A DNA stretch of 64,000 nt. It comes from Streptomyces sp. AA1529. GTDB lineage: Bacteria > Actinomycetota > Actinomycetes > Streptomycetales > Streptomycetaceae. Both the position numbers and the translations under genes were made by a program. This document shows positions 32,208 to 42,411 of this stretch, piece after piece; position 1 is the first letter of the stretch; each line of letters begins with the position of its first letter. The stretch spans positions 248,001-312,000 of the forward strand of contig NZ_ALAP01000092.1 in the NCBI RefSeq assembly GCF_000280905.1. Direction: 5' to 3'. The notes below the pieces were generated by a model that was not told the DNA's origin, searched no databases, and saw only the letters and a program-made list of their open reading frames with translations.

Positions 32208-32672
32208 TCAGCCGGCGGTTCCGTTCTGCCGGGCGGCGCGGGCGGCGCGCGCGCAGGAGGCCGACACGGCGCTGCGCAGCCATTCCGGCAGCGGCTCCTG
32301 GTGGGTCGCCCGGGTCAGCAGGCGGGCGACCTCCCGGAGTTTGGTGTTGGTCCGCTGCGAGGTGTCGACCAGCACCCGCCATGCCGTCTCGGGGCCGCAG
32401 CGCCCCGAAGCCATGATCACCCCGCGCGCCTGGTCGATCAGGGGACGGCTGTCCAGCGCCTGCCGGAGTTGGGCCACCTCCTCCCGGAGTCGGTGCAGCT
32501 CGGCGGGCGGACATGCCTCGTGCGCCGGGCCGGCGGCCCCGGACTCCGCACCGGCGGCCGACGGTTCTCGGCCGACGGCCCGGGGCTCTTCACGGGAGTC
32601 CCCGGGCCTCTCGTCAGGAGGAGGAGAATCGGAGGTGTAGAAGGTCCCCTCGCTGGTCACCCGTAGCTCCAT
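32208..32672 (-). CDS. ANTAR-domain protein
   Basis: A 154-residue protein. An unstructured Pro/Glu/Ser N-terminus (1-60) leads to a short coiled coil (ELHRLREEVAQLRQALDSR) and an ANTAR domain (about 82-130, LIDQARGVIMASGRCGPETA...LREVARLL). ANTAR domains bind tandem stem-loops in nascent RNA to prevent termination, usually under a sensor or phosphorelay; no GAF or receiver domain is attached here. The start is uncertain: ATG 32672 fits the coding boundary but its site is weak. Confidence 0.8.
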   Translation of the reverse strand: MELRVTSEGTFYTSDSPPPDERPGDSREEPRAVGREPSAAGAESGAAGPAHEACPPAELHRLREEVAQLRQALDSRPLIDQARGVIMASGRCGPETAWRVLVDTSQRTNTKLREVARLLTRATHQEPLPEWLRSAVSASCARAARAARQNGTAG

Positions 32673-32965
32673 CCGAGCTGGTTCGGCCCAGGAGCCGGCG
32701 CGGTAGCGCCCCGGACCCGGCCTAGGCGGAGCCGGGCGCGCGCCCTGCCGCCCCAGGGCGAGTGGACAAGCGATCCCACTGCCCGGGGCGGCGCCACGGC
32801 AGGATTCATCGTGCCTCCGGAGACAACTGTTGTCGCATGACACATGTCTGCCCGTCCGGGCGGGACGGTACGCCCACCTGTGAGATAGCGAACACCGGCG
32901 CACCCGTACCGTGGCGGGACGCCCTCCCGCCCGGGAGGGCCACCCCATGACCGAGGAGCGCCGCC

Positions 32966-34021
32966 GTGACCCCGCCCCAACCGCCCGTGCTGGTCGAAAG
33001 GGACGGCCGCGCCGGCCGTCTCGTGCTCAACCGCCCGCGCACGCTCAACGCACTCGACCGGGAGATGGTCGACCGGCTCACCGGAGCGCTGGACACCTGG
33101 GAGCGGGACGACGCGGTCGCCGCCGTCGTCCTCAGCGGCGCGGGCGAGCGGGGGCTGTGCGCGGGCGGAGACATCCGCGGGATCCACGAGGACGTGCGAC
33201 AGGGCGGCGGCGCGGACTCCGCACGGTTCTGGGCGGCGGAGTACCGCCTCAACGCCCGGATCGCCCGCTACCCCAAGCCGTACGTGGCGCTCATGGACGG
33301 GGTCGTGATGGGCGGCGGTGTCGGAGTCTCGGCACACGGCAGCGTCCGCGTCGTCACCGAGCGGTCGCGAGTCGCCATGCCGGAGACGGGCATCGGCTTC
33401 GTCCCGGACGTGGGCGGCACCTGGCTGCTGTCGCGGGCGCCGGGCGAGCTGGGCACACACCTGGCACTGACCGCCGGAGCGGTGGGTGCGGCGGACGCCC
33501 TGCTGTGCGGACTGGCGGACCACTTCGTCCCCGCGGACCGGCTCGCGGACTTCGCCGCCGCGCTGTCCCACACCCCGCCCGCGGACGCGGTGGCGCGGTA
33601 CGCGACCGTCCCGCCGGAGTCCGAACTGGCCGGGCAGCGGGCCTGGATCGACACCTGCTACGACTCCGACAGCGTTCCGGAGATCCTGGCCCGGCTGCGC
33701 GACCACGGCGGGACCGCGGCCAAGGAGGCGGCCGCGGCCGTCGAGTCGAAGTCCCCCACCTCCCTCAAGGTCACCCTCGCCGCGCTGCGCCGGGCACGGG
33801 ACCTCACCTCGCTGGAGGCGGCTCTGGAACAGGAGTACCGCACCTCCGTCGCCGCGCTCTCCTCACCCGACTTCGCCGAGGGCGTGCGGGCCCGGATCAT
33901 CGACAAGGACCGCAGCCCGCGCTGGTCGCCCGGCGCACTCGAGGAGGTCTCCGAGGAGGAGGTGGCACGGCACTTCGCGCCGCCGGACAGCGGCGACCTG
34001 AGGCTCGACGTGCGAATCTGA
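32966..34021 (+). CDS. 3-hydroxyisobutyryl-CoA hydrolase-like (enoyl-CoA hydratase/isomerase family)
   Basis: A 351-residue crotonase-fold enzyme. The first oxyanion-hole strand is GLCAGGDIRGIHE (about 63-75), the second MDGVVMGGGVGVSAHG (about 110-125), with VAMPETGIGFVPDVGGTW carrying the acidic residue. The length and long C-terminal domain fit HIBYL-CoA hydrolase (valine catabolism) rather than a 260-residue enoyl hydratase. GTG 32966 follows GAGGAGCGCC. It stands alone, so valine degradation is inferred from family only. Confidence 0.8.
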   Translation: MTPPQPPVLVERDGRAGRLVLNRPRTLNALDREMVDRLTGALDTWERDDAVAAVVLSGAGERGLCAGGDIRGIHEDVRQGGGADSARFWAAEYRLNARIARYPKPYVALMDGVVMGGGVGVSAHGSVRVVTERSRVAMPETGIGFVPDVGGTWLLSRAPGELGTHLALTAGAVGAADALLCGLADHFVPADRLADFAAALSHTPPADAVARYATVPPESELAGQRAWIDTCYDSDSVPEILARLRDHGGTAAKEAAAAVESKSPTSLKVTLAALRRARDLTSLEAALEQEYRTSVAALSSPDFAEGVRARIIDKDRSPRWSPGALEEVSEEEVARHFAPPDSGDLRLDVRI

Positions 34022-34156
34022 CGCTTTCTGCGGGCATATTCTGATGGCCCATGAGCTACCCGTGCGTTCCTCACATCACGTTCGTGACAGAACTGACTAC
34101 ACATTCCCCTCACACATGCTGCACGCTTGATCCGTGCTTCCGAGGGGAGGGGAACG
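34022..34156 (+). promoter_or_regulatory. AT-rich ramC promoter region
   Basis: This 135-bp gap upstream of ramC is AT-rich for this genome. It has a TCACG-TT-CGTGA dyad (34076-34087) and two CCTCACA repeats 39 bp apart (34069-34075, 34108-34114). In other streptomycetes RamR/AmfR activates this promoter; these elements are candidates for its site, but I cannot fix the motif by eye. Confidence 0.45.
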
Positions 34157-36913
34157 ATGGACAAGCGGTACGAGATCTTCTGTCTCGCGGACCCGTATTT
34201 CTACGAAACACCCGACCGCTTGTCGGACTCCGCGTCACGCACCGCCACGGACGACACGGGAAGACGGTCCGACGAGTCGGCCGCCGACCGTTCCGCTGAT
34301 CCGGGCGCATTCCCGGTAGCGAGCCGACCCGTCCCCGCCGGCTGGCGGCAGACCCGGTCCGGCGACTGGCTGGAGCTGCGCCCGGTGGCGGGAGAATTCC
34401 CGCTGCAGGGCTGGAAGATTCACGCCTCGGCGACTCTCGACAACGCGGACGAAATCGGCACGGCGATCTGGGACCACTGCGTACCCCGCGGAATTCCCTT
34501 CAAATTCGTGCCGCACCGCACCCTCCTGTACCTGCGCAACGCCAAATATGCCGGGCGCGGCACGAGCGGTAAATTCGCCACGATATACCCGGCCGACGAG
34601 ACACAGCTCGAGAGCATTCTGCGCGAGCTGGACGAGAGCCTGTCGGGCCGGCCGGGGCCGTACATCCTGACGGATCTGCGCTGGCGCACCGGACCGCTGT
34701 ACGTACGCTACGGCGGCTTCGCGCCGCGATTCTGCGTCGACGGCCAGGGCAGGCTCGTACCGGCGGTGGAGGACGCCGGCGGCCGGCTCGTCCCGGACCG
34801 CAAGGACCCCGCGTTCCGGGTGCCCGACGGGGTGACGCTGCCCGCCTTCCTCCGGCCGGAGCTGGCGGCGCGCGACGCGGCCACCGTCCAGGAGCTGCCC
34901 TACCGGATCGAGCGGGCGCTGCACTTCTCCAACGGCGGTGGTGTCTACGGCGGCGTCGACACCCGGGACGGGAGCCGGGTCGTGCTCAAGGAGGCACGGC
35001 CGCACGCCGGACTCGCGGCCGACGGCGCCGACGCGGTGGCCCGGCTGGAACGCGAGAAGGCCGCACTCGACCGGCTCGCCGGACTGCCGGTGGTACCGGC
35101 CGTCCGGGACTGGTTCGAACTGGACGGGCACCGGTTCCTGGTGATGGAGGAGCTCGCGGGGCAGACCCTCAACTCCTTCTTCGCCAGACGCCATCCGCTG
35201 CTGAGCTCCGATCCCGACCCGGAAGCACTCACCCGGCACACCGAGTGGGCGCTGCGCATGCACCGGCTGGTGGAGGACGCCGTCGCGGCGGTGCACGAGC
35301 GGGGCATCGTCTTCAACGACCTGCACATGTTCAACATCATGGTGGCGCCCGACGAGCAGTCCGTCGCGCTGCTGGACTTCGAGGCGGCCGCACCCGCCGA
35401 GGACGACCCGCGCCAGATCGTCGCGCACCCCGGATTCATCGCCCCGGCCGACCGCACCCGCTACGAGATCGACCGCTACGCACTGGCATGCCTGCGGCTC
35501 GCGCTGTTCGTCCCGATGACGACGCTGCTGGCGGTCGACCGGGCCAAGGCGGCGCACCTGGCCGAGATCGCCGCCGAGCAGTTCCCCGGCATCCCGCCGG
35601 AGTTCCTGGCCGAGGCCGTCGCCACCATCGAGGGCACGGCCGCCGGTACCGCCGCGGTCCGTGGCACCCGGGTCGCCGCGGCTCCCGCGCCCGGCGACTG
35701 GCCGTCGGCCCGGGACGCGATGGTGCGGGCGATTCTCGCCTCGGCCACTCCCGAGCGCGACGACCGGCTCTTCCCGGGCGACGTGGCGCAGTTCAACGAC
35801 GGCGGAGGGCTCGGGCTGGCGCACGGCGCCGCCGGAGTGCTGCACGCGCTCGCCGAGACGGGCGCCGCCCGCTTCCCGGAGGGCGAGGAGTGGCTGCTGC
35901 GGCACACCGACCCCCCGCCGCGCGGCACCCCGCTGGGGCTCTACGACGGCCTGCCCGGAGTCGCCTGCGTACTGGCCCGCTTCGGCCACACCAAGCGGGC
36001 GCTGGAGCTGACCGAGCGGGTGCTGGACGAGAAGTGGCAGCGGCTGGGCAGTTCCCTGCACGGCGGTCTCGCCGGTCTCGGTCTCGCGCTGGAGCAACTC
36101 GCGGACGACACCGGTGAGCAGCGGCTGCACTCGGCCGCCCTGGAGGCCGCCCGGCTGCTGGCGCGGCGGCTGGACGAACCCGACGACGGCACCCGGGGAG
36201 TCAACCGGGCCGGGCTGCTGCACGGTGCCACCGGATCCGCGCTGCTGTTCCTGCGGCTGTACGAACGGCACGGCGACCCCGCGCTGCTCGACCTGGCCGA
36301 CCGCGCGCTCGCCCGCGACCTGGCGCACTGCGTCCGGGACAGCGCGGGGACCTGGCAGGTCGACGAGGGCAGCCGGGTGATGCCCTACCTGGGTGCGGGC
36401 AGCGTGGGCATCGGCATGGTGCTCGACGACTTCCTGGGCCACCGGCCGGACCACGAGGGCTTCGCGACCGCGCGGGAGGGCATCCTGCCCGCCGCACGGA
36501 TGCGCTACTACGCGCAGCCCGGGCTCTTCCAGGGCCGGGCCGGGATGCTGCTGCACCTCAGCCGGACCACCGCGCCCGGTGTCACCGAGGCCGACCGGCA
36601 GGCGCAGCTCACCGGGCTCGGCTGGTACGGGATGACGTACCAGGAGGGCCTCGCCTTCCCCGGCGACCAGATGATGCGGCTGTCGATGGATCTGGCGACC
36701 GGCACCGCGGGCTGCCTGCTCGCCACGGGTGCCGCCGTCGGCACCGCGGCCGGCGGGACCCCGCCGAGCCTGCCGTTCCTGGCACCACCGGCGCAGCGCA
36801 GCGCCACACCGCCGCCCGGGCCGGCCGCGCGCCACAGCAGCGCGCCGGCACCCGGCGGCCCACAGACCGGCCTCCGGGGCGGGGGCCGTACCGAAGCACA
36901 ACCGTCCCTGTAA
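34157..36913 (+). CDS. ramC: Class III lanthipeptide synthetase (RamC/AmfT-like LanKC)
   Basis: A 918-residue LanKC enzyme that dehydrates Ser residues of the SapB precursor and cyclises them with Cys. An N-terminal lyase-like region (about 1-250) leads to a Ser/Thr kinase domain: Lys near 277 (VVLKEAR), catalytic loop FNDLHMFNIM (Asp about 388), then DFE in place of DFG. The C-terminal LanC-like barrel (about 550-880) shows repeated HGAAG, YDGLPG, HGGLAG, HGATG and FQGRAG loops but lacks the Zn-binding CHG/Cys set of nisin-type LanC, as in RamC. ATG 34157 has GGGGAGGGG. ramS follows 36 bp downstream, making an operon with the two ABC genes. Confidence 0.93.
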   Translation: MDKRYEIFCLADPYFYETPDRLSDSASRTATDDTGRRSDESAADRSADPGAFPVASRPVPAGWRQTRSGDWLELRPVAGEFPLQGWKIHASATLDNADEIGTAIWDHCVPRGIPFKFVPHRTLLYLRNAKYAGRGTSGKFATIYPADETQLESILRELDESLSGRPGPYILTDLRWRTGPLYVRYGGFAPRFCVDGQGRLVPAVEDAGGRLVPDRKDPAFRVPDGVTLPAFLRPELAARDAATVQELPYRIERALHFSNGGGVYGGVDTRDGSRVVLKEARPHAGLAADGADAVARLEREKAALDRLAGLPVVPAVRDWFELDGHRFLVMEELAGQTLNSFFARRHPLLSSDPDPEALTRHTEWALRMHRLVEDAVAAVHERGIVFNDLHMFNIMVAPDEQSVALLDFEAAAPAEDDPRQIVAHPGFIAPADRTRYEIDRYALACLRLALFVPMTTLLAVDRAKAAHLAEIAAEQFPGIPPEFLAEAVATIEGTAAGTAAVRGTRVAAAPAPGDWPSARDAMVRAILASATPERDDRLFPGDVAQFNDGGGLGLAHGAAGVLHALAETGAARFPEGEEWLLRHTDPPPRGTPLGLYDGLPGVACVLARFGHTKRALELTERVLDEKWQRLGSSLHGGLAGLGLALEQLADDTGEQRLHSAALEAARLLARRLDEPDDGTRGVNRAGLLHGATGSALLFLRLYERHGDPALLDLADRALARDLAHCVRDSAGTWQVDEGSRVMPYLGAGSVGIGMVLDDFLGHRPDHEGFATAREGILPAARMRYYAQPGLFQGRAGMLLHLSRTTAPGVTEADRQAQLTGLGWYGMTYQEGLAFPGDQMMRLSMDLATGTAGCLLATGAAVGTAAGGTPPSLPFLAPPAQRSATPPPGPAARHSSAPAPGGPQTGLRGGGRTEAQPSL

Positions 36914-36949
36914 CACACAACCCAACACCCCGATAGGGAAGGAAACATC

Positions 36950-37072
36950 ATGGCCCTTCTGGACCTGCAGACCATGGAGCCCGAGGAGCGCACCGGCGGC
37001 GGCGACGACAGCAGCGCCAGCCTGCTCCTGTGCGACAAGCTCAGCTCCCACAGCGCGCTCCTGTGCCTGTGA
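36950..37072 (+). CDS. ramS: SapB-type lanthipeptide precursor (RamS/AmfS-like)
   Basis: A 40-residue precursor. The leader LLDLQTMEPEE keeps the LxDLQxME motif that recruits LanKC enzymes. The core, Ser21-Ser-Ala-Ser-Leu-Leu-Leu-Cys28 and Ser32-Ser-His-Ser-Ala-Leu-Leu-Cys39, has two Ser-x2-Ser-x3-Cys motifs, as does RamS of S. coelicolor (SRASLLLC and SSLSITTC, recalled from memory). This predicts two lanthionine/labionin-type rings plus dehydroalanines and a hydrophobic, surface-active peptide needed for aerial hyphae. It differs in a Leu C-terminus and DKL linker. ATG 36950 has GGGAAGGAAAC. Confidence 0.9.
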   Translation: MALLDLQTMEPEERTGGGDDSSASLLLCDKLSSHSALLCL

Positions 37073-37076
37073 CCGG

Positions 37077-38906
37077 GTGACTCACGCACCCAGTGCTCCC
37101 GGGCGGGGTTCTGCCCCCGCCCGGGGGCACTCCCCTGTCTCCGGACCGCCGGCCGGCCCGGCCCGCCGCGCTCCCGCCGACCGGCTGCTGCTCGCCGCGG
37201 GACGGCCGCACCTGTGGCGCACCCTCGCGCTGTTCGCCACGGCGACCGGGGCTGCGCTCGCCGCGCTGGCACTGCCCGCGGCCCTGGGCCGCACCCTCGA
37301 TCTGCTGCTGGCCGGCGAGGCGGCCGACGGCGCCGAGACGGGCCGCTGGCTCGCCTGCTGCGCAGCGCTGACCGCCGCCTCGGTGGCGTTGGACGCGGCC
37401 GACGCGGTGCTGACCGGCACGCTCAACTCCCGTACCACAGCCGGGCTGCGCACCCGGCTGGCCGGCCATCTGCTGGCGGTGGGACCGCACCGTGCGGGCC
37501 GCTTCAGCCACGGGGACCTGGTCACCCGCTGCACCGGAAACGCCGCGCACGCGGGCACGGCACCCGGCAGCGTCGCCTCCGCGCTGGCCGCGCTGGTCAC
37601 GCCGGTGGGTGCGCTCGTGGCACTCGCGGTGCTCGACCTGCGGCTCGCGGCGGTCTTCCTCGCCGGCACCCCGCTGCTGGTGCTGCTGCTGCGCGCGTTC
37701 TCCCGCACTTCGACCGACTGCGTGACCCGCTACCAGGAGACCCAGGCGCAGCTCGCCGGGCGGCTCGTGGAGGCACTGACCGGAGCCCGCACCATCGCGG
37801 CCGGCGGCCTGCGCGAACGTGAACAGAAGCGGGTGCTGGAACCGCTGGACCGACTGTCCGCACACGGCCACCGAATGTGGCAGGTGCAGGGCCGGGCTAC
37901 CGCGCAGGCCGCCGTGCTGGTGCCGCTGCTCCAGGTCGCGGTGGTCGCGGTCGGCGGACTGCTGCTGGGCCGGGGGGCGCTGAGCGTGGGCGGTCTGGTG
38001 GCCGCCGCCCGGTACGCGGTACTGGCGGCAGGCGTCGGCACCCTCGTCGGCCAGCTCAACGCGCTGGTGCGCGGCCGTACCGCGGCACGGCGGCTGGCGG
38101 AGGTCCTGGAGGTGCCCGCCATGGCGACCGGGCGCCGGGCGGCCCCGGAGCACACTGCGGGCGGCCGGCCGGGACGGCTGGAACTGCGCGGTGTGCGCGC
38201 CTCGTACGCGGGTGAGCCGGTGCTGCACGACGTGGACCTGGTGGTGCCCGGCGGCACCACGGTCGCCGTGGTCGGCCGGTCGGGAGCGGGCAAGTCGCTG
38301 CTGGCAGCCGTCGCCGGGCGGCTCGCCGAACCGGAGGCCGGGCAGGTGCTGCTGGACGGTACCGACCTGGCCGAACTGGATCCGGCCGCCCTGCGGCGGG
38401 CCGTCGGATTCGCCTTCGAACGCCCGGTGCTGTTCGGCTCCACGGTCGGCGAAGCGCTCGCGGCCGGGATCCCCGCCGGACACGAGGGGCGCGAGGCCCG
38501 GGTCCACGCGGCGGCCCGCGCGGCCTGCGCCGACGGGTTCGTCCGTACTCTGCCGCACGGCTACGGCACGCCCTGCGCACAGGCCCCGCTCTCCGGCGGC
38601 GAGATCCAGCGGCTGGGCCTGGCCCGGGCGCTCGCCCAGGACGGCCGGGTGCTCGTGCTGGACGACGCCACCTCCAGCCTGGACACGGTGACCGAGTGGA
38701 AGGTCACCCGGGCGCTGGCGGACCCGGGCGGGCGGGGCGGGGCACGCACCCGGCTGGTCGTCGCGCACCGCGCCTCGACCGCCGCCCGCGCGGACCTGAC
38801 CGCCTGGCTGGACGGCGGCCGGATCCGGGCGCTGGCTCCGCACCGGCAGTTGTGGGAACAGCCCGGCTACCGGTCCCTCTTCGGCAGCGGGAGCGACGAT
38901 GACTGA
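37077..38906 (+). CDS. ramA: ABC half-transporter (RamA-like)
   Basis: A 609-residue exporter half-unit. Transmembrane helices occupy about residues 45-300. The nucleotide-binding domain has Walker A GRSGAGKS (near 400), signature LSGGEIQR and Walker B VLVLDDATSS. With the next gene it should form a heterodimer exporting the SapB-like peptide. GTG 37077 is the only in-frame start before the first helix that I can find, 4 bp after the ramS stop and without a clear site; a strong hairpin (37092-37131) then falls in its first codons. The 3' end overlaps ramB by 8 bp. Confidence 0.8.
   Translation: MTHAPSAPGRGSAPARGHSPVSGPPAGPARRAPADRLLLAAGRPHLWRTLALFATATGAALAALALPAALGRTLDLLLAGEAADGAETGRWLACCAALTAASVALDAADAVLTGTLNSRTTAGLRTRLAGHLLAVGPHRAGRFSHGDLVTRCTGNAAHAGTAPGSVASALAALVTPVGALVALAVLDLRLAAVFLAGTPLLVLLLRAFSRTSTDCVTRYQETQAQLAGRLVEALTGARTIAAGGLREREQKRVLEPLDRLSAHGHRMWQVQGRATAQAAVLVPLLQVAVVAVGGLLLGRGALSVGGLVAAARYAVLAAGVGTLVGQLNALVRGRTAARRLAEVLEVPAMATGRRAAPEHTAGGRPGRLELRGVRASYAGEPVLHDVDLVVPGGTTVAVVGRSGAGKSLLAAVAGRLAEPEAGQVLLDGTDLAELDPAALRRAVGFAFERPVLFGSTVGEALAAGIPAGHEGREARVHAAARAACADGFVRTLPHGYGTPCAQAPLSGGEIQRLGLARALAQDGRVLVLDDATSSLDTVTEWKVTRALADPGGRGGARTRLVVAHRASTAARADLTAWLDGGRIRALAPHRQLWEQPGYRSLFGSGSDDD
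37092..37131 (+). terminator. 17-bp hairpin directly after ramS
   Basis: Arms 37092-37108 and 37115-37131 pair over 17 bp with one G-T wobble and a 6-nt loop (TTCTGC), starting 20 nt after the ramS stop. It can act as an attenuator or 3'-end stabiliser, making more ramCS message than ramAB. It lies inside the apparent 5' coding end of ramA. Confidence 0.75.
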
Positions 38907-40836
38907 GCCCGCGGCGGCACCCCCCGGGGCCCCGGTGGAGGGGGTGGGCACCGGACCCGCGGAGCGGCAGGCGCCGCACCGGCGCGCGGGCGGCCGGCAC
39001 CGGGCGCCGCGCGGGCTCGGACGGGCCGGGGTGCGCTTCCTGCTGCGGCGGCCACGGGTGCTGCTGGCGCTGGCGGGCTGGTCGGTGCTGGAGGCGGCGC
39101 ACACCTTCGCGCTGGGATTCGCGCTCGCACGGGCCCTGGACGACGGTTTCCTGGCGGGCCGCCCGGCCGTGGGTCTGGGGTGGCTGGGCGTCGCCGCCGC
39201 CGGACTGCTCGCGGGGGCCTGGGGCACGGCACGGGTCTACCGGCAGGTCGCGGCGCTCGCCGAACCGCTGCGGGACGAACTGGTGCGCCGCGTGGTGGGC
39301 CGCGGGCTGTACGAGGCCGTGGCCGCCGCCGGGGCCCCTGGTCGGGCCGCGGACGACGCCGCGGGTACCGGTGTCGTCTCCCGGCTGACGCATCAGGTGG
39401 AGATCGCCCGGGACAGCTTCGCGGGGCTGGTGATGGTCTCGCGCTCGTTCCTGTTCACCCTGATCGGCGCGGTCTCCGGGCTCCTGGCGCTGGCGCCGGT
39501 GCTGCTGCTGGTCGTCGTACCGCCGCTGGTGGCCGGGCTCGCGGTGTTCGCCGGGACCCTGCGGCCGCTCGCCCGTCGGCAGCGGGACTTCCTGGTGGCG
39601 GACGAGGAACTGGCACATGAGGCGGGCACGACGGTGCGGGCGCTGCGGGACGTGACCGCGTGCGGGGCCCAGGAGCGGGTGCGGCAGTCCGTGGTGGAGA
39701 AGGTGGCGGCGGAGCAGCGGGCGGCCGACGCGCTCGCGTACTGGGGGGTGGCCCGGGCGCTGGCGCTGGGGCTGGGCGGACGGCTGCCGGTGGTGCTGCT
39801 GCTGGTGCTCACCCCGTGGCTGCTGCGGCAGGGCGTGAGCGCCGGGGCGCTGGCGGGGGCGCTCACCTACCTCACCCAGGCGCTGCTGCCCGCGCTGCAG
39901 AGCCTGGTGCACGGCCTGGGCGGCGCCGGTGCGCGCTTCGCGGTGGTGATCGGCCGGCTGCGGGACGGAGCCCCGGAACCGTCCCCCGATCCGCCGCGCA
40001 CCCCGCTCCCCGGCCCGCGGGCGGGCGTGCCCGGGGGCGGCGCGGCGGCCGTCTCCGGCGGGGCGGGAGGCGCCGCGGCTCCCGCGCTGGAGCTGCGGGG
40101 AGTCACCTTCGCCTACGGACCGGCGGCCGAGCCGGTGCTCGCCGGGCTCGATCTGACGGTCCCCCCGGACGGGCGGCTGGCGGTCGTCGGCCCCAGCGGG
40201 GCGGGCAAGTCCACACTGGCGCTGCTGGTGGCCGGAGTGCTGCGGCCGTCGAGCGGCGAGATCAGGCTGCACGGCAGCCCCGCCCTGCCGCCGCTGCCGG
40301 AAGGGGCTCCGCGTCCGGCCCGGTTGCCTCCGGCGGTGGAGCAACGGGTGCTGATCCCGCAGGAGTCGTACGTCTTCACCGGCAGCGTGCGGGAGAACCT
40401 GTGCTGTCTGCTGCCGGACGGCGCCGCCGTGCCGGGACCGGTGCTGCTCGGCGCCGCCGAGGCGGTGGGGGCGGACGCGCTCGTGCGGCGGCTGGGCGGG
40501 ATCGACGGGCCGGTGGATCCGGCAGCGCTCTCGGCGGGTGAGCGGCAGCAGATCGCGCTGGCCCGCTCCTATCTGTCCCCGGCCCCGCTGGTCGTCCTGG
40601 ACGAGGCGGGCAGCCAGCTGGACCCCGCCGCCGAGGAGGTGGCCGAGCGCGCCTTCATCCGGCGCGGCGGGGCGCTGGTGGTGATCGCGCACCGGATCAG
40701 TTCGGCTCTCCGCGCCGACCGGGTGCTGGTGCTGGACGGCGAACACACCTGCTGCGGGACCCATGCCGAGCTGCTGGAGCGCTCCGGGCTCTACCGCGAC
40801 CTGGCGGCGGGCTGGGCTCCGCCCTCGCGGGTGTGA
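38899..40836 (+). CDS. ramB: ABC half-transporter (RamB-like)
   Basis: A 645-residue exporter half-unit. A basic, Pro-rich N-terminus (1-50) precedes the membrane domain (about 55-350). A Gly/Ala/Pro linker leads to the nucleotide-binding domain: Walker A GPSGAGKST (about 434), a degenerate signature LSAGERQQ and Walker B VVLDEAGSQLD. The signature lacks the second Gly of LSGGQ, common in one half of a heterodimer. Its start overlaps ramA by 8 bp, so the two are co-translated. It is the last gene of the operon, before a convergent hairpin. Confidence 0.87.
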   Translation: MTEPAAAPPGAPVEGVGTGPAERQAPHRRAGGRHRAPRGLGRAGVRFLLRRPRVLLALAGWSVLEAAHTFALGFALARALDDGFLAGRPAVGLGWLGVAAAGLLAGAWGTARVYRQVAALAEPLRDELVRRVVGRGLYEAVAAAGAPGRAADDAAGTGVVSRLTHQVEIARDSFAGLVMVSRSFLFTLIGAVSGLLALAPVLLLVVVPPLVAGLAVFAGTLRPLARRQRDFLVADEELAHEAGTTVRALRDVTACGAQERVRQSVVEKVAAEQRAADALAYWGVARALALGLGGRLPVVLLLVLTPWLLRQGVSAGALAGALTYLTQALLPALQSLVHGLGGAGARFAVVIGRLRDGAPEPSPDPPRTPLPGPRAGVPGGGAAAVSGGAGGAAAPALELRGVTFAYGPAAEPVLAGLDLTVPPDGRLAVVGPSGAGKSTLALLVAGVLRPSSGEIRLHGSPALPPLPEGAPRPARLPPAVEQRVLIPQESYVFTGSVRENLCCLLPDGAAVPGPVLLGAAEAVGADALVRRLGGIDGPVDPAALSAGERQQIALARSYLSPAPLVVLDEAGSQLDPAAEEVAERAFIRRGGALVVIAHRISSALRADRVLVLDGEHTCCGTHAELLERSGLYRDLAAGWAPPSRV

Positions 40837-40876
40837 CGGGCACGGTCCCCCACGGGGGCGGCACCGGTGTGCGGCC

Positions 40877-40901
40877 GCGGGGAGCGGCCGGCGCTCCCCG
40901 C
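40877..40901. terminator. Bidirectional terminator hairpin
   Basis: A 10-bp perfect stem around CGGGGAGCG/CGCTCCCCG with a 5-nt loop, between the convergent ramB (ends 40836) and ramR (ends 40916) genes. Confidence 0.7.
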
Positions 40902-40915
40902 GCACCGAAGCCCCC

Positions 40916-41533
40916 TCAGAGCCAGCCGGCTCCCTGGGAGATGCGGATGGCGTCCACCCGGTTGCGTGCGCCCGTCTTCCGCGTGATGGCGGACATGTAG
41001 TTGCGCACGGTGCCGGTGGAGAGCCCCAGATGCCGGGCGATCTCGCCGACGGACGCTCCTTCGGCCGCAGCCGAGAGCACGGTCAGCTCCCGTTCGCTCA
41101 GTGGGGCTTCCGAGGCGCGTAAGAAGGTGCCGGCGAGCGCGTTGTCGACGAAGCGCTCGCCGGCGGCGACTCTTCGTATGCCGGTCACCAGTTGCTCGGG
41201 GAGCGCGTCCTTGCACACGAATCCGCGGGCTCCCACGTCCAGCGCCCGGCGCAGGGCCCCCGGGCAGTGCTGGCTCACCAGTACCAGCAGCCGCTGGGCC
41301 GCGTCGGCGGTCCGTACGGCACCGGTCCGGGAGAACCCCGCCAGTTCGTCCAGCGGCGACCGTTTGGTCACATCGGCGTCCACGATGCAGACGTCGGCGG
41401 TCCGCGTCCGCGCCAGCCGCATCGCGTCCTTGGCGGGTGCGGCCTCGATGGCCATGTCGGGCTCCCGGCCGACCAGAGCGGCCAACGCGCAGCGGAGTAT
41501 GCGGACATCGTGCACCAGCAGTACCCGGATCAC
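40916..41533 (-). CDS. ramR: NarL/LuxR-type response regulator (RamR/AmfR-like)
   Basis: A 205-residue regulator. The receiver domain (1-120) has a single acidic residue in the pocket (HD at 8-9, where DD is usual), the phospho-acceptor aligned to Asp52 (IVDADV) and Lys108. The C-terminal LuxR helix-turn-helix (about 142-200) reads LSERELTVLSAAAEGASVGEIARHLG...TVRNYMSAITRKTGARNR. In other Streptomyces, RamR activates the ramCSAB promoter. No histidine kinase is beside it. GTG 41533 has AGGGGGGACC upstream. Convergent to the operon it should control. Confidence 0.88.
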   Translation of the reverse strand: MIRVLLVHDVRILRCALAALVGREPDMAIEAAPAKDAMRLARTRTADVCIVDADVTKRSPLDELAGFSRTGAVRTADAAQRLLVLVSQHCPGALRRALDVGARGFVCKDALPEQLVTGIRRVAAGERFVDNALAGTFLRASEAPLSERELTVLSAAAEGASVGEIARHLGLSTGTVRNYMSAITRKTGARNRVDAIRISQGAGWL

Positions 41534-41796
41534 TCTTGGTCCCCCCTAGATGCCTGATCGCCTCACGGATGACAGGCGCAACTCCATACATACAAGCTCA
41601 TAGGAGCGAAGAGGCGCACAGTTTTGGCCACACATTGAGACCAAACGTGTGCGATGTGTTATGAGGGGCGCGTTAGGGGGCGCATTCAGCGTGGGGACGC
41701 AGACCGTACGCCCCATGCCCCGCTCCGTCTCCTGCCCCGTACCACCCCGGATGCCGCCTGCGCCCGACCCCGCCGCGGGACCACCTCGCCCCCGGC
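41534..41796 (-). promoter_or_regulatory. AT-rich ramR promoter region
   Basis: This 263-bp gap upstream of ramR has several AT-rich stretches (41580-41640). In S. coelicolor and S. griseus, AdpA and BldD act upstream of ramR/amfR. I could not pick a convincing site by eye. Confidence 0.35.
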
Positions 41797-42411
41797 TCAC
41801 ATCTCGTCCTCGTCCACCGTCCGCAGTGCGCGCTCCTCGGGGGACAGCCCCTCGCTCTCGCCCGCCTCCCGGCCGTAGACGTCCTGCCGGCGGGGCGGCG
41901 CCGCCTCGGGATCGGCACGGAGCGCCCCCGCGAGAGCGTCGGGCAGGCCGGAGACCACCTTCCGCTCGGACTCCTCGGGCTCCTCCTCCGCGAGCCGCTC
42001 GTCCAGCGACTCGCCCGCACGCATCTCCGCCGGGGTGGGAGCGGCGCGCGTCACGGCGGTCGGGGTGTCACCGGGCACCGACTCCTGCTGCGGGTCGCTG
42101 GACCGCTGCTGCATCGGCCCGCCGTCCTGCAGGTCGGGAATGCCCTCGTCCTCGGGTTCGGCGCCCGGGTCGGCGGGTTCCGCGTGCTCTTGCTCGGCCT
42201 CGGCCTGCGGGGTCAGGAACGAGGTGTCGAATCCGCCGCCGTCGTCCCCGGCGACGCGCGGCGGAGGATCGGACTCCACGGGCGGTTGCCAGTGGCCGCG
42301 CTCCAGACGCTCGCCCGGCTCCCGGCCCGGCACGGGCCCGGGCCGCAACTCGGCGGCGTCCTCGATGGTGACGCCCTCCTCCGCGGGGATGTCCCTGCCG
42401 TCTCCCGTCAT
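41797..42411 (-). CDS. Acidic Pro/Glu-rich hypothetical protein (DUF5709-like)
   Basis: A 204-residue soluble protein without hydrophobic helices. It is strongly acidic (many Glu/Asp, several E-rich blocks such as RLAEEEPEESERK and SPEERALRTVDEDE) and rich in Pro, Gly and Gln, so probably mostly disordered. The phrases AGESLDERLAEEEP and the C-terminal GREAGESEGL resemble uncharacterised actinobacterial DUF5709-type proteins. ATG 42411 has GAGGAGGCC. It is next to the ligase gene on the same strand, 95 bp apart. Confidence 0.7.
   Translation of the reverse strand: MTGDGRDIPAEEGVTIEDAAELRPGPVPGREPGERLERGHWQPPVESDPPPRVAGDDGGGFDTSFLTPQAEAEQEHAEPADPGAEPEDEGIPDLQDGGPMQQRSSDPQQESVPGDTPTAVTRAAPTPAEMRAGESLDERLAEEEPEESERKVVSGLPDALAGALRADPEAAPPRRQDVYGREAGESEGLSPEERALRTVDEDEM

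Follow-up and report, generated by a model that had tools for sequence, protein, structure and literature searches.

Positions 34157-41533 of the window, as we call the whole 64,000-nucleotide stretch of Streptomyces sp. AA1529 DNA that was analysed, hold five intact genes in the ram/amf order (Table 1). The LanKC enzyme, the 40-residue precursor, the two ABC half-exporters and the convergent NarL-type regulator that the first-pass annotation had named are all recovered by the open reading frames and domain scores, and its wider claim of a SapB-like class III lanthipeptide locus is borne out by the RamS, SapB_AmfS and LanKC profile scores and by the gene order. The genome as a whole contains one precursor match and one LanKC above the cut-off; 26 weaker matches to the LanKC model fall below the cut-off and lie on its kinase-domain positions. 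Directly upstream of the operon are an ANTAR-domain gene (32208-32948, minus strand) and an ECH_2 enoyl-CoA hydratase/isomerase gene (32966-34021, plus strand), the hydratase match being kept in seven of nine close relatives.

Table 1. Features of the ram/amf-type locus, in window coordinates.
Feature	Coordinates	Strand	Basis
Conserved block ahead of LanKC, possibly a promoter or RamR-type operator (predicted binding)	34052..34107	+	alignment of 10 close loci
LanKC (RamC/AmfT type) class III lanthionine synthetase, 918 aa	34157..36913	+	NF038151; RamC_N, Pkinase, LANC_like
RamS-family precursor MALLDLQTMEPEERTGGGDDSSASLLLCDKLSSHSALLCL, 40 aa	36950..37072	+	PF19402, NF033212
ABC half-exporter 1, RamA-like by place	37077..38906, start unsure	+	ABC_membrane + ABC_tran
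Hairpin of 17 pairs with a 6-base loop; putative 3' stabiliser of the mRNA or partial terminator	37092..37131	+	fold, covariation, family-wide shuffle test
ABC half-exporter 2, RamB-like by place	38899..40836	+	ABC_tran; adjoins exporter 1 in related loci
LuxR/NarL-type response regulator, RamR/AmfR-like by place, TTA codon 138	40916..41533	-	Response_reg + GerE

The LanKC scores 1124 bits against NCBIfam NF038151 (cut-off 575) and carries the lyase, kinase and metal-free cyclase domains of this enzyme family (Pfam RamC_N, Pkinase for the kinase, and LANC_like). For the ThurKC residues reported to be important, Lys65, Lys108, Lys117, Arg163, Arg191 and Glu384 (PMC10604976), the counterparts read by eye from an alignment to ThurKC, whose numbering offset was derived from the chain, are K87, K130, K139, R184, R215 and E409, and the kinase residues D388 and N393 are present as well. 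Of these residues, K139, R184, D388, N393 and E409 never vary across 100 LanKCs; K87 and K130 are conserved in 99 of them, R215 in just 64. The zinc-ligand positions are occupied by G746, F791 and Q792, which fits a metal-free class III cyclase. Two points count against the proposed function: the weaker conservation of R215, and the Gln that the window LanKC has at the position of Asp771, which ThurKC needs for ring formation. Gln is the commonest residue there (34 of 100 LanKCs) and so no special trait of the window.

The precursor reaches 59.1 bits against Pfam RamS (PF19402, cut-off 24.3) and 53.9 bits against NCBIfam SapB_AmfS (NF033212, cut-off 25), family scores that put its RamS-family membership beyond chance. 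Its translation is as first described, with a leader containing LLDLQ and a core, DDSSASLLLC-DKL-SSHSALLC-L, in which two SxxSxxxC motifs are joined by a three-residue linker and followed by a final Leu; a stop or frameshift was looked for along the whole gene and none was found.

How common this core is was read from a survey of the genus, in which 392 genomes were searched and 209 gave RamS-family matches. The best 150 matches, down to about E 5e-13 and hence short of weak members, were listed, and the precursors of 131 of them (the window's own, 30 loci and 100 stretches) were read, the other 19 having scores equal or close to those of the rows taken. Among these 131 of the best 150 matches the linker has one residue in 33, two residues in 85 and three residues in 13 including the window, so that the three-residue form accounts for roughly a tenth of the precursors read, and a Cys-Leu end is found in 33/33 one-residue and 13/13 three-residue precursors. 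The 13 three-residue linkers within the same set are DKH in eight, DKL in two, DTH in two and DKF in one. The recurrence of three-residue linker and Leu end in these 13 of 131 marks a subtype.

The nearest relatives come from a LanKC scan of named genomes, with 79 loci chosen for their likeness to the window and 20 further loci added. In S. qinglanensis the precursor protein is identical, its DNA differs at one of 123 bases and its LanKC is 96% identical to that of the window. The DK-linker precursors of S. smyrnaeus, S. spirodelae, S. albus, S. reniochalinae and S. diacarni belong with that of S. qinglanensis to the same subtype and the same operon, but carry Thr in ring 2 and, as third linker residue, Gln in S. 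spirodelae (DKQ) and His in the other four (DKH), in S. albus in two subspecies. Within the core, the window and S. qinglanensis depart from their nearest relatives at two places only: the third linker residue is Leu where the others have His, Gln or Phe, and the second ring contains Ala in place of Thr. The core does differ from the SapB and AmfS types, as the first-pass annotation had proposed, but its distinctness was overrated, and divergence as a novelty is not supported: linker length and Leu end are common to a well-spread subtype. The idea of a divergent, possibly unique core was rejected on the census of the three-residue subtype together with the identical S. qinglanensis precursor. 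Five core fragments searched for in the open full-text literature, as distinct from figures and subscription papers, gave no match, and no characterised product of the three-residue DK-linker design was found in that search. Flavipeptin came into view as a close relative through S. flavidovirens, which carries the subtype, and was dropped, since its source is Kribbella flavida. Outside the genus, two or three tandem precursors follow the LanKC in Micromonospora, Actinomadura and Jidongwangia loci (L102, L106, L108, L110), and Actinomadura craniellae (L100) has a seven-residue linker, DGEGHSG, with the last Cys as final residue.

Downstream of the precursor, both exporters and a minus-strand regulator are matched in 84 of the 90 loci long enough (window excluded); of the six exceptions, three show the regulator match without the exporter pair, two show none of the three matches and one lacks the regulator. 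Two of the three loci without exporter pair but with regulator match have a DKH core. In S. aidingensis and Streptomyces sp. YIM 98790 (L072, L076) the regulator match comes soon after a DKH-type precursor and the exporter pair is unmatched, so that another export route would be needed there. A domain search lists no C39 peptidase domain for either exporter of the window, and Gly-Gly cleavage by an exporter was rejected on this absence. No protease domain was found by Pfam search among the five operon genes, while five M1-peptidase matches elsewhere in the genome are candidates only; for flavipeptin the protease FlaP has been named (PMC10885120).

A hairpin with a fold z of -3.62 (37060-37160) lies just behind the precursor gene. 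When the 110 bases after the precursor were compared with 40 dinucleotide shuffles per locus in 97 loci, 82/97 beat all 40 shuffles (79/97 in a first run) and 91/97 had at most two shuffles equally good. The coding controls beat all 40 shuffles in 4/98 (precursor gene), 1/98 (inside LanKC), 2/93 and 3/92 (exporter positions), and the control upstream of LanKC in 14/98. Just before the precursor the count is 31/98, which may reflect an additional hairpin in part of the loci; in the window LanKC and precursor are only 36 bases apart. Among nine close loci 153/153 cells are paired, with both sides changed at four pairs and none broken. A strong hairpin between precursor and exporter is seen across linker types. 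A search of 33500-42000 against Rfam found nothing at E values up to 1, and a scan for U-tract terminators picked one chance-level terminator elsewhere and not the hairpin, which is accordingly not a U-tailed terminator by that scan.

Partial terminators or 3' stabilisers of this kind occur in other lanthipeptide operons, and the hairpin, placed as it is between the precursor gene and the exporter genes, is most naturally read as such an element. That the hairpin is instead part of the exporter 1 coding sequence, its pairing a by-product of GC-rich coding, is unlikely. In the window the frame is open across the hairpin and is preceded by an in-frame GTG (37077), the sole in-frame ATG, GTG or TTG within 260 bases past the precursor stop, and in 20 of the 72 loci whose frame spans the hairpin a start codon precedes it; against this, the other 52 have no ATG, GTG or TTG before the hairpin, and a further 17 loci have a frame that opens only within the hairpin or beyond it (the longest open frame, irrespective of homology, stood for the exporter frame, and 8/97 lacked a long frame). 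Coding controls at only one to four of 92-98 loci and the four pairs changed on both sides with none broken likewise speak against a coding by-product.

The receiver domain of the regulator barely passes its cut-off (30.3 versus 30.2), and the gene has one TTA codon, number 138. A TTA codon in regulator or LanKC occurs in 56 of the 88 loci where both were scored, in the regulator only in 46, in LanKC only in five, in both in five and in neither in 32; the same TTA habit is reported for amf-like clusters in a review (PMC4255298). Seven of nine close relatives lack the regulator TTA, which is present in L090 and, at a different codon, in L036; two loci without it, L095 and L040, have a TTA in LanKC instead. 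Upstream of LanKC, two 8-mers of the conserved block, TGCGTTCC and CGTGACAG, occur in 29/100 and 24/100 upstream regions of 170 bases, as raw counts, and a sigma-70 promoter scan found no promoter.

Intact genes, family membership, gene order, catalytic residues and conservation of the hairpin make it very probable that the window encodes a functional ram/amf-type operon whose product is a RamS-family class III lanthipeptide with two rings, exported and active as a morphogen of aerial growth. In the proposed course of events, regulation would begin with the convergent regulator, which would switch the operon on and whose TTA codon may tie it to bldA in this strain, and the hairpin probably causes more transcripts to end behind the precursor gene than to continue into the exporters. 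LanKC would bind the LLDLQ leader, phosphorylate Ser residues in both SxxSxxxC motifs and then eliminate water, and would close two rings over Ser3-Ser6-Cys10 and Ser14-Ser17-Cys21 of DDSSASLLLCDKLSSHSALLCL. The leader would be trimmed by a host protease encoded outside the cluster, the two half-ABC proteins would export the peptide, and the amphipathic product would act at the colony surface, where it would help aerial hyphae to rise.

Two alternatives bear on this reading. The class III lanthipeptide of the same operon might have a main role other than morphogenesis, for example inhibiting or signalling to other strains, and the strain-selective action of the durhapeptin variant S26T (PMC13380574) and the switching of linker classes on the LanKC tree described below point that way. 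We nevertheless regard this as quite improbable, as the ram/amf gene order is kept, no immunity-like gene is found by domain among the five operon genes, and the genome has 10 chaplin-domain matches, from which the species is expected to form aerial hyphae. Still more improbable, to a high degree, is a silent or decayed locus in which the genes look intact and no product is made: the native durhapeptin locus gave no detected product under the tested condition (PMC13380574), but the search for stops and frameshifts came up empty, the catalytic residues are kept and the precursor protein is the same in S. qinglanensis. The functional morphogen operon therefore stays the preferred reading, and the window locus is sound and ordinary, belonging to a known family and to a common subtype; with the same peptide type in many related species, it is a catalogue entry and not a surprise.

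The distribution of the subtype on the enzyme phylogeny is of wider bearing. In a FastTree tree of 100 LanKCs drawn around that of the window, the linker classes are one residue in 43 loci, three in 34, two in 20 and seven in one, with two unclassified, the three-residue share being enriched by the way the set was drawn. The window falls within a starred set of eight, all with three residues, and the tree requires 12 changes of linker class compared with 44.1 when the classes are shuffled. On an IQ-TREE quick tree of 58 rows, hand-picked from 97 classed rows without near-copies and without the rows from other genera in the outer clade, the grouping of all 30 three-residue rows together is rejected (p-AU 3e-8). 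These tree tests indicate that linker types have switched several times, which bears on whether such peptides serve as specific signals or can replace one another as surfactants. A tentative and rather doubtful extension is that the one-, two- and three-residue linker types of RamS-family peptides, which would switch on LanKC backbones, serve as signals limited to a group; the charged DK-linker would be a third such type, with peptides active chiefly on strains of their own type. That amf-cluster divergence plays a part in speciation has been suggested and left unsettled (PMC4255298); if the extension were true, SapB-like divergence separating species would become directly testable via swapped cores.

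With respect to known systems, the window shares with SapB (ramCSAB-ramR, Streptomyces coelicolor) and with AmfS (amf locus, S. griseus) the gene set, the LanKC family, the LLDLQ leader, the two SxxSxxxC motifs, the exporter pair and the regulator. SapB-type precursors among the 131 read of the best 150 matches have the linker GD and an Asn or His end where the end lies in the matched stretch, whereas in the window the linker is DKL, the end is Leu and both motifs start with Ser-Ser, so that it is not a SapB proper, as defined by GD linker and Asn end. AmfS-type precursors have the linker EY, EF or EH in the same 131 matches and a Thr-Pro end in five fully read loci. SapB and AmfS thereby appear as two among several core designs of one conserved operon.

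Durhapeptin of S. durhamensis, with the core TGASTASLLSCVSAASVLLCL, resembles the window peptide in its two SxxSxxxC motifs, its C-terminal Leu and the adjoining ABC genes and response regulator, but has one uncharged linker residue (Val) in place of DKL (PMC13380574). On the LanKC tree, which does not include durhapeptin's own enzyme, other one-residue-linker loci lie closer to the window than do its six SapB-type and two AmfS-type loci. For a durhapeptin variant two labionins are supported; for this enzyme group, that of the window LanKC as well, the ring type is described as unreadable from the sequence (PMC13380574). The only form assayed for activity, the Ser-to-Thr variant S26T, induced aerial hyphae in 4/17 strains carrying durhapeptin or related clusters and had no action on its own producer (PMC13380574), which cautions against assuming a morphogen role for every member of the family. 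Durhapeptin shows that a Leu end and paired SxxSxxxC motifs, as found in the window core, occur in a working morphogen, the action of which can be selective (PMC13380574).
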